Origin: Oceanobacillus iheyensis HTE831
GTDB lineage: Bacteria > Bacillota > Bacilli > Bacillales > Amphibacillaceae
Assembly (NCBI RefSeq): GCF_000011245.1
Contig: NC_004193.1
Coordinates: forward strand, 1,094,501 to 1,158,500
Direction of reading: 5' to 3'
DNA: 64,000 bases
Part shown: positions 9,424 through 48,314 of the stretch, in pieces
How positions within the stretch are numbered: the first letter of the stretch is position 1
How the letters are laid out: each line of letters opens with the position of its first letter
The notes under the pieces: model-generated
What the model was told of the DNA's origin: nothing
The model's input: only the letters and a program-made list of their open reading frames with translations
Database searches by the model: none
Program-made: the position numbers and the translations under genes

Positions 9424-9459
9424 GAATACATTCTTCATCTTGAAACCTTATATATAGTT

Positions 9460-10246
<787 letters not shown>

Positions 10247-11551: not shown

Positions 11552-11569
11552 TAAAAGATTCATTTCAAG

Positions 11570-11612
11570 GAAGAGGATATTATGCTGTAGGAGCATAATA
11601 TCCTCTTTTCTT
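11570..11612 (+). terminator. Terminator of xpt-pbuX
   Basis: AAGAGGATATTATGCT pairs with AGCATAATATCCTCTT around a 5-base loop and is followed by T-rich sequence. Confidence 0.93.
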
Positions 11613-11618
11613 CGTTGT

Positions 11619-11919
11619 CTAGGAAATTATAAAATTTTGGGTCTGTGGATAAACAACTAAGTTAATTAGCTACGTCCAGCTCCAGCACCCATCACCTATT
11701 GTCCTTCCGGAAACCTCCTTAGGATAAAGAAGACTGCCGAGTGTTCTTTGTGAGGCATAGTCGCACTTATACCCGTGCGGTGAAAGTCAACATCGATTCG
11801 CATACGCTTATCGTGTTTCCTTTATCTCAAAGAAATAAAGAAGTTCGACCAGTCGAACCCCCCCTTGAAAAACAGGGGCGCAGGACATACGGTGATAAAC
11901 GGGCGCTTGCGCTTTTGTT
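11619..11919 (+). repeat. Long intergenic repeat, copy A (one internal module)
   Basis: It begins CTAGGAAATTATAAAATTTTGG and ends GCGCTTGCGCTTTTGTT. It is nearly identical to the copies at 22209, 35100 and 47956 and contains one copy of the 55-57 bp module (near 11730-11790). The two ends are complementary in three blocks: AGC-CCC/GGGCGCT, ATCACC/GGTGAT and GTCC/GGAC. Small hairpins (TTCGACCAGTCGAA; CCCC...GGGG) lie inside. The copy sits directly after a terminator. The 69-codon ORF inside it is not a gene, because copy D interrupts it with a stop. Confidence 0.93.
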
Positions 11920-22160: not shown

Positions 22161-22205
22161 AAAAGCGTAACAAGTTTGTCCCAAACCTTGTTGCGCTTTT
22201 GTTAT
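22161..22205 (+). terminator. Terminator of the ABC exporter operon
   Basis: AAAAGCGTAACAAG pairs with CTTGTTGCGCTTTT around GTTTGGG-like loop sequence, with T-rich bases after it. Confidence 0.88.
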
Positions 22206-22208
22206 TTT

Positions 22209-22451
22209 CTAGGAAATTATAAAATTTTGGGGCTGTGGATAAACAACTAAGTTATTTAGCCACGTCCAGCTCCAGCGCCCATCACCTATTGTCCTTCCGG
22301 AAACCTCCTTACGATAAGTCAACATCGATTCGCATACGCTTATCGTGTTTCCTTTATCTCAAAGAAATAAAGAAGTTCGACCAGTCGAACCACCCCTTGA
22401 AAAACAGGGGCGCAGGACATACGGTGATAAACGGGCGCTTGCGCTTTTGTT
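22209..22451 (+). repeat. Long intergenic repeat, copy B (no internal module)
   Basis: Same ends and core as copy A, but the 55-57 bp module is absent: the sequence passes directly from CCTTACGATAA to GTCAACATCG. All three complementary end blocks are intact here (AGCGCCC/GGGCGCT, ATCACC/GGTGAT, GTCC/GGAC). It starts 4 bases after the exporter terminator. Confidence 0.93.
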
Positions 22452-22535
22452 ATTTTCCAGTGTTTCCATAACATGGTTTCTTCACATGTTTGTTCTTTTA
22501 GTATAATAGAATTAGATATAGAAAGGAGCATATAA

Positions 22536-35090: not shown

Positions 35091-35099
35091 AAGTGTTAG

Positions 35100-35446
35100 A
35101 ACAAAAGCGCAAGCGCCCGTTTATCACCGTATGTCCTGCGCCCCTGGTTTTCAAGGGGTGGTTCGACTGGTCGAACTTCTTTATTTCTTTGAGATAAAGG
35201 AAACACGATAAGCGTATGCGAATCGATGTTGACTTTCACCGCACGGGTATAAGTGCGACTATGCCTCACAAAGGACATTCGGCAGTCTTCTTTTCACCAT
35301 TGGCATAAGTGCGACTTTGCCTCACAAAGAACACTCGGCAGTCTTCTTTATCGTAAGGAGGTCTCCGGAAGGACAATAGGTGATGGGCGCTGGAGCTGGA
35401 CGTGGCTAATTAACTTAGTTGTTTATCCACAGCTCCAAAATTTTAG
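35100..35446 (-). repeat. Long intergenic repeat, copy C (two internal modules)
   Basis: Inverted relative to copies A, B and D. Two module units are present: the GTCTTC marker recurs at 35284 and 35341, a 57-base period. The left terminal AT tract is shortened (it ends TTTTA at 35445). It begins 17 bases after the dat stop. ORFs of 60-66 codons within it are not genes. Confidence 0.93.
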
Positions 35447-35462
35447 ACCATAAAAAAGAATG

Positions 35463-36659: not shown

Positions 36660-36733
36660 GCGGGTGTAGTTTAATGGTAAAACCTCAGCCTTCCAAGCTG
36701 ATGACGAGGGTTCGATTCCCTTCACCCGCTCCA
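36660..36733 (+). tRNA. tRNA-Gly (anticodon TCC)
   Basis: Acceptor GCGGGTG/CACCCGC, D-arm GTAGTTTAATGGTAAAAC, anticodon loop CTTCCAA (TCC), T-arm GAGGGTTCGATTCCCTT, discriminator T and encoded CCA. It is a solitary gene with its own promoter and terminator. Confidence 0.97.
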
Positions 36734-36790: not shown

Positions 36791-36815
36791 AATGGTTTAG
36801 GAAGGTATAAAGTTA

Positions 36816-36853
36816 AGCGGCTGCGGATAAACGGACGCTTGCACTTCTGTTAA
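36816..36853 (+). repeat. Short remnant of the long repeat family
   Basis: GGCTGCGGATAAACGGACGCTTGCACTTCTGTT joins a piece of the repeat's 5' end (GGCTGTGGATAAAC) to its 3' end (GGGCGCTTGCGCTTTTGTT), as an internally deleted, decayed copy would. Confidence 0.5.
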
Positions 36854-47948: not shown

Positions 47949-47955
47949 TTTATAT

Positions 47956-48309
47956 CTAGGAAATTATAAAATTTTGGGGCTGTGGCTAAACAACAAGTTA
48001 TTTAGCCACGTCCGGCTCCAGCGCCCATCACCTATTGTCCTTCCGGAAACCTTCTTACCTTAAAGAAGACTGCCGAATGTTCATTGTGAGGCATAGTCGC
48101 ACTTATGCCATGGCGAAAAGAAGACTGCCGAATGTACTTTGTGAGGCATAGTCGCACTTATGCCGTGCGGTGAAAGTCAATATCGATTTGCATACGCTTA
48201 TCGTGTTTCCTTTATCTCAAAGAAATAAAGAAGTTCGACCAGTCGAACCACCCCTTGAAAAACAGGGGCGCAGGACATACGGTGATAAACGGTCGCTTGC
48301 GCTTTTGTT
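47956..48309 (+). repeat. Long intergenic repeat, copy D (two internal modules)
   Basis: Full-length copy with two modules (GAAGACTGCCG at 48065 and 48120, a 55-base period). It starts 8 bases after a terminator and ends 5 bases before the MATE stop codon. The ORF seen in copies A and C is broken here by TGA (GTGCGGTGA), showing it is not a gene. Confidence 0.94.
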
Positions 48310-48314
48310 CATAT

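Follow-up and report, generated by a model that had tools for sequence, protein, structure and literature searches.

A modular, folded intergenic repeat behind terminator-like stems in Oceanobacillus iheyensis and its relatives: a candidate non-autonomous mobile element

The Repeat in the Window and in Its Genome

The window, i.e., the whole stretch of 64,000 nucleotides of Oceanobacillus iheyensis HTE831 DNA that was analysed here, contains four copies of an intergenic repeat, named A to D (Table 1), and a fifth one reduced to a remnant. The four copies had been proposed in the initial annotation and are real: BLAST of copy A against the window recovers the other three, and their ends can be placed. 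The three blocks through which the ends were predicted to pair, and the hairpins TTCGACCAGTCGAA and CCCC...GGGG, are likewise present in the copies, and copies B and D fold at z = -5.0 and z = -4.15, respectively, relative to shuffled sequences. The copies vary in length chiefly through the number of tandem modules that they carry. An Rfam scan of the window returned four matches, all ordinary and none of them at a repeat copy; copy D gave sub-threshold matches only, the best of them in the terminator region upstream, and no Rfam family was thus accepted as its identity.

Table 1. Repeat copies, their parts and the Rfam matches in the window (position 1 is the first letter of the window)
Feature	Position	Strand	Remarks
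Terminator-like stem and T-run	11569-11609	+	directly 5' of copy A; consensus match
Copy A	11618-11919	+	ends and sub-features mapped
Copy A, leader	11618-11640	+	
Copy A, 5' closing stem	from 11674	+	
Copy A, module	from 11727	+	single
Copy A, inner hairpin region	from 11783	+	
Copy A, optional hairpins	11844-11857, 11861-11878	+	
Copy A, 3' end	11901-11919	+	
Copy B	22208-22451	+	no module; BLAST match of copy A 22196-22451 (+)
Copy B, leader	22208-22230	+	
Copy B, 3' end	22433-22451	+	
Copy B, left duplication	22197-22209	+	13 nt; final 2 nt overlap the leader
Copy B, right duplication	22445-22457	+	13 nt; overlaps the T-tail
Copy C	35100-35448	-	two modules; shortened leader; BLAST match 35097-35445 (-)
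Remnant	36798-36851	+	54 nt; leader joined to 3' end, inner part deleted
Copy D	47955-48309	+	two modules (48063, 48118); BLAST match 47955-48310 (+)
SAM riboswitch	3493-3599	-	Rfam
6S RNA	8445-8630	+	Rfam
Purine riboswitch	9443-9544	+	Rfam
tRNA gene	36660-36730	+	Rfam

In the genome, which was searched as a single contig of 3,630,528 bp, BLAST matches grouped manually fall into 42 places, the structure model described below finds 47, and the 3' end motif has 56 matches with at most 3 mismatches (none for the reversed control), so that the number of copies lies in the tens and not in the hundreds that had been extrapolated from the window. A full copy begins with the leader TCTAGGAAATTATAAAATTTTGG, which is followed by a small hairpin, the closing-stem strands AGCGCCC, ATCACC and GTCC, and a GATAA stretch. 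The middle is made up of 0-9 modules, each about 55 nt long and arranged in tandem, followed by an inner hairpin and TTTATCTC, after which a domain with the hairpins TTCGACC...GTCGAA and CCCC...GGGG may or may not be present; the strands GGAC, GGTGAT and GGGCGCT and a T-tail close the copy. The 42 extracted places measure 151-750 nt each and hold no module in 17 cases, one in 12, two in 5 and three in 4, the remaining four having 6, 8, 9 and 9. The stems of the modules change on both sides between species, as in GACTTGCC/GGCTTAGTC and GACTTAGC/GCTAAAGTC (judged by eye, without a count).

Several further details were noted. The leader hairpin of most copies (e.g., 22208-22270 of the window) contains TGTGGATAA, which we take to resemble a DnaA box and which recurs in relatives. 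One copy (L381, 536690-536839 of the genome) is closer in sequence to the subfamily of other genomes of the genus than to the home subfamily, so that two subfamilies share this genome, perhaps through transfer. Two copies, L049 (2353355-2353507) and L092, lie in what by eye is an rRNA spacer and run in the direction opposite to that of the rRNA; their flanks are 88% and 98% alike. An all-against-all comparison of the flanks of fetched loci yielded chiefly matches of repeat to repeat.

Covariation and the Folding Strand

The structure of the repeat is strongly supported by covariation, and the end pairing that had been predicted is borne out in two alignments. The first one (A1) contains 40 short forms from the genus, out of 89 sequences left after 8 of 97 elements had been excluded as incomplete, and 16 of its 31 predicted pairs show two-sided change. 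When all pairs of columns are scanned without a structure, closing-stem and inner-hairpin pairs take the top ranks, and some unrelated pairs appear lower down. The second alignment (A2) comes from the structure model, with which 100 places were recognized in 80 loci from other genomes: among its 99 distinct rows 94.0% of cells are paired and two-sided changes occur in 30 of 36 pairs and in 395 cells, values that are biased toward pairing by the fitting of the alignment to the model. None of 500 shuffles reaches them, and slid partners give at most 49.4%, 15 pairs and 57 cells. Not only the closing stems but also the inner hairpins covary. The second stem illustrates the pattern, being ATCACC/GGTGAT here and AGCGAC/GTCGCT, AGTGAC/GTCACT or AGCAAC/GTTGCT elsewhere.

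A functional RNA of the gene strand should contain more G-U than A-C combinations in its stems. On that strand, A-C and G-U cells stand at 34:11 in A1, at 66:59 in all A2 rows, at 54:45 in the 80 full-length A2 rows (out of 100), and at 32:16 when only the 62 A2 rows with the best pairing are taken. If each combination of pair, type and genome is counted a single time, this becomes 29 vs 9 in A1 (p = 0.0017), 53 vs 41 in the 80 full A2 rows (p = 0.26, no clear difference) and 31 vs 13 in the 62 best-paired rows (p = 0.0096). The reverse of the expected excess is thus seen, and a function as gene-strand RNA is not supported. The A-C excess fits folded DNA, or RNA of the other strand. With respect to the proposed role as a 3'-end stabiliser, most gene transcripts would be expected to end before they reach the copies, since these are located 3' of terminators.

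Placement Behind Terminators

That copies start just 3' of a terminator, as the initial annotation had it, is evident for copy A (Table 1) and is true of the genome at large. By a simple test that was applied to 37 of the 42 places, a stem with a T-run lies directly upstream of 25 of 37 copies vs 26 of 740 positions drawn at random from these loci; 12 of the 37 fail, 4 of them having their start placed inside the leader. An open frame running in the direction of the element is present upstream of 33 of the 37 copies. If replication starts near coordinate 1, as is assumed here, 51 of the 56 matches of the 3' end point along with it, which may merely reflect gene direction; the GC skew of the window is positive, consistent with the + strand being the leading one there.

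Empty Sites, Duplications and Arrays

The repeat is mobile, a conclusion that is supported by element-free orthologous sites, by duplications in some copies and by arrays. For the comparison of empty sites that had been suggested for related strains, flank-only queries were made for 8 insertions from three genomes and searched in five genomes, and for every insertion (8 of 8) one or more orthologous sites lack the core, with base-clean boundaries for L154 only. In the ortholog of L154 (L330, 92% identical, element-free), TTTGTTATAG is found once, and the same stretch flanks the L154 element twice. The site of L141 is empty in L331, and L354 has at the same place what resembles a decayed remnant; L136 shares its terminator with L350, in which no element follows it. 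The core is also absent from the site of L104 in L351 and from that of L106 in L359, where the flanks align poorly, and L146 and L123 have element-free orthologs too. Two insertions have occupied orthologs, L123 in L358 and L286 in L356, the latter being element-free in L357.

No clear target duplication had been seen in the initial annotation, and this has to be corrected for copy B, which is flanked on both sides by TTTTGTTATTTTC (Table 1). Duplications, which measure 10-13 nt in the copies that have them, are clear for copy B and for L154 vs L330 and weak overall, most leader copies being without a clear one. Flanks were compared for 236 elements, to which 297 had been reduced by removing duplicates and locus edges. 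The mean longest match between left and right flanks is 7.52 for 126 copies with a leader vs 7.24 (sd 0.09) when flanks are swapped, and 5.82 vs 5.81, i.e., no duplication signal, for 110 leaderless copies, perhaps because the left boundary of the latter was set wrongly. In one register, which is the best of 35 and was picked after inspection, 153 leader copies have 13, 11, 7 and 12 exact 4-mers at four steps, vs shuffled means of 5.4, 2.5, 1.3 and 1.7 and shuffled maxima of 10, 6, 5 and 6.

Two genomes (L362, L363) contain head-to-tail arrays of seven units, each unit beginning behind the T-tail of the preceding one. The units of the arrays at L362, L363, L364 and L369 are related, 120-150 nt long, and have common ends and different interiors, for which Rfam gave no match.

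The search of the O. iheyensis genome for an autonomous version revealed none among the stretches read: 30 of 40 leader matches have a 3' end within 800 nt, and the other 10 comprise five weak matches and five copies already known, whose 3' ends are altered, the reversed leader pattern by itself giving 10. Nine further stretches of this genome were read, and eight of them have 3' ends, in every legible case as part of a short, truncated or mini copy.

Distribution

The element is present in 27 of 28 genomes of the genus, in 101 of 120 genomes and 42 of 46 genera of the family, and in 36 of 299 genomes of the class. The family survey scored 25 candidates per genome and the class survey, under stricter filters, 10, which makes the copy numbers per genome lower bounds. 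The core pattern occurs in at least 119 stretches; the 80 titles among the matches listed are mostly of genera placed in the Bacillaceae, next to Bhargavaea and two records with Paenibacillus in the title. The pattern was found in no viral contig, and a phage or plasmid origin was rejected, neither copy D nor one short relative having a match among 50,697 phage records and 72,556 plasmid records. By eye, repeats with the common ends and other interiors exist in further genomes, and eight such stretches match no Rfam family.

Bacillaceae-1 RNA as a Cassette

Some relatives carry a cassette that reaches the gathering score of the covariance model of Bacillaceae-1 RNA (RF01690), a score that no window copy reaches. 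There are 11 such matches in 36 loci, 3 of them in a set of 18 and 8 in another 18 that were partly picked as likely to hold this RNA. As judged by eye, five are located in the optional slot on the element strand (L232, L272, L239 and twice L214, the host element at L214:263 having no left part), and two are in the same slot on the other strand (L266, 3867-3933 and 4081-4147). One occupies the module slot, again on the other strand (L171, 7809-7877), one lies in a truncated element (L209), and two stand alone (L252, between the 23S and 5S rRNA genes, and L166). The matches in L171 and L266 imply that the cassette occurs in either direction. The RNA, previously unexplained, would thereby be accounted for as one cassette within a larger element, pieces of which may otherwise get reported as separate RNAs.

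A Possible Mechanism and Its Alternatives

Our preferred reading, which we consider somewhat probable (about 0.55), is that of a modular, BOX-like repeat found in Bacillaceae and their relatives, mobile but non-autonomous, whose movement depends on its fold. What defines the element would then be largely this fold, closing stems with a T-run after them. The fold would be recognized, most likely as single-stranded DNA, by a trans-acting enzyme that the host provides or that has since been lost, and this enzyme would join the element behind other hairpins with a T-run, i.e., behind intrinsic terminators and in gene direction. A staggered join would duplicate about 9-13 nt, the T-run included. 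The element's own end, a stem with a T-run, would be a further target, which is how tandem arrays may arise, and hairpin cassettes (the 55-nt modules, the TTCGACC/CCCC pair, Bacillaceae-1) would fill the two inner slots. We infer the enzyme, the single-stranded intermediate and the attraction of terminators through their likeness to the element end; recognition of folded, single-stranded ends is favoured because the right end of the element is itself a stem with a T-run and because pairing is kept and letters are not. This reading would account for a repeat that most genomes of the family carry.

A SINE-like retroposon would be the first alternative, though an unlikely one. In this model, a transcript of the gene strand with UUUUGUU at its end would anneal to the T/A-run of a terminator and serve as the template of target-primed reverse transcription, with an enzyme borrowed from a group II intron or some other element. 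The model agrees with the one-directional insertion 3' of T-runs like that in the tail of the element, and it would account for both the T-tail and the left-truncated copies, some of which lie directly behind T-runs (L064, L376, L379). A leader is found within 800 nt of 30 of the 56 matches of the 3' end; the truncation count obtained in this way is an upper limit, because the leader pattern misses the leaders of other subfamilies. Group II introns also follow TTTTTATG in three of five cases, as several copies do. However, the gene strand has the A-C excess described above, and the reverse transcriptase domain RVT_1 has no match in 12 of the 41 genomes for which 15 or more copies were scored, and is matched in 8 of 19 genomes without copies. 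The domain was found in 8 of 19 genomes with 0 copies, 20 of 36 with 1-5, 15 of 24 with 6-14 and 29 of 41 with 15-25, and reverse transcriptase was rejected as a requirement.

A classical MITE, whose terminal inverted repeats the transposase of an insertion sequence would bind in double-stranded form, appears similarly improbable. Several copies of the O. iheyensis genome do have the perfect inverted stretch AGCGCAAGCGCCC/GGGCGCTTGCGCT, and duplications of about 11 nt would be in order, but in leader copies the complementary stretch begins only about 50 nt inside, its inner part varies in sequence from species to species with the pairing preserved and unpaired letters conserved, and the inner hairpins covary too. 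Less probable still is a structured RNA that is spread over many loci and transcribed in the direction opposite to that of the upstream gene: gene-strand A-C is G-U there, which turns the counts of A1 and of the 62 best-paired A2 rows in its favour, and the opposite strand folds at z = -4.8 (gene strand, -4.5), but the 80 full A2 rows give no clear difference, no conserved promoter was noticed in the 500 bases scanned and the positions differ between near relatives. The initial annotation had left the choice among a structured RNA, a MITE and a 3'-end stabiliser; the structure has held up through covariation and the mobility through empty sites, duplications and arrays, and a role as gene-strand RNA is not supported.

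Beyond the fold-dependent mobile element, a wider reading can be offered tentatively. Bacillales may possess a mobile system whose ends are recognized by shape (stem and T-run), so that terminators mimic the ends and the element is its own next target; cassettes, Bacillaceae-1 included, might be swapped between slots, and same-end classes with other interiors could exist in further families. This would be a case of the stop signals of genes serving as landing sites for a folded mobile element.

Comparison with Known Systems

Bacillaceae-1 RNA is related to the repeat by location, 9 of its 11 matches being inside this element or a cut-off copy of it; it measures 67 nt and is only one optional cassette, whereas the window copies carry another hairpin pair. 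The motif is listed in Table 1 of PMC2864571, 10 occurrences are given for one genome (PMC5764928) and eight for B. subtilis (PMC8208703), and PMC10440787 references a paper in Gene from 2022 that deals with two classes of it.

The group II introns of the same genome resemble the repeat in being located behind terminator-like stems and T-rich stretches: all five intron regions begin there, three after TTTTTATG and two after variants. The repeat differs in its ends, in the lack of an encoded reverse transcriptase and in its duplications, which group II introns are not known to make. No group II intron was matched by Rfam in the window, and the extracted places have the lengths given above. For a derivative of IS200/IS605 no target duplication would be expected, whereas some copies of the repeat have one.

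A 190-bp repeat is known in B. subtilis, but its search in open PubMed Central papers gave no result, and it is not put forward here as a relative. No description of the whole element was found in these papers, subscription literature being outside the scope of the search, and four stretches of its end sequences returned only unrelated titles from the open text. The Bhal-1 family of B. halodurans, a 74-bp intergenic stem-loop from a related host, is likened to the repeat by description only (PMC2267715).

The closest published kind is the BOX element of Streptococcus pneumoniae. According to PMC3049150, BOX elements are short, gene-less intergenic repeats with a predicted fold, are thought to be moved in trans, and are linked to ISSpn2 via inverted repeats; our search of the O. 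iheyensis genome with end patterns found no such mobile partner. Both BOX and the repeat described here have two ends around variable tandem middle modules, of which the latter contains 0-9 in its 42 places. The sequence and the hosts are different. Unlike for BOX, covariation across genera and placement behind terminators are shown here for this element.
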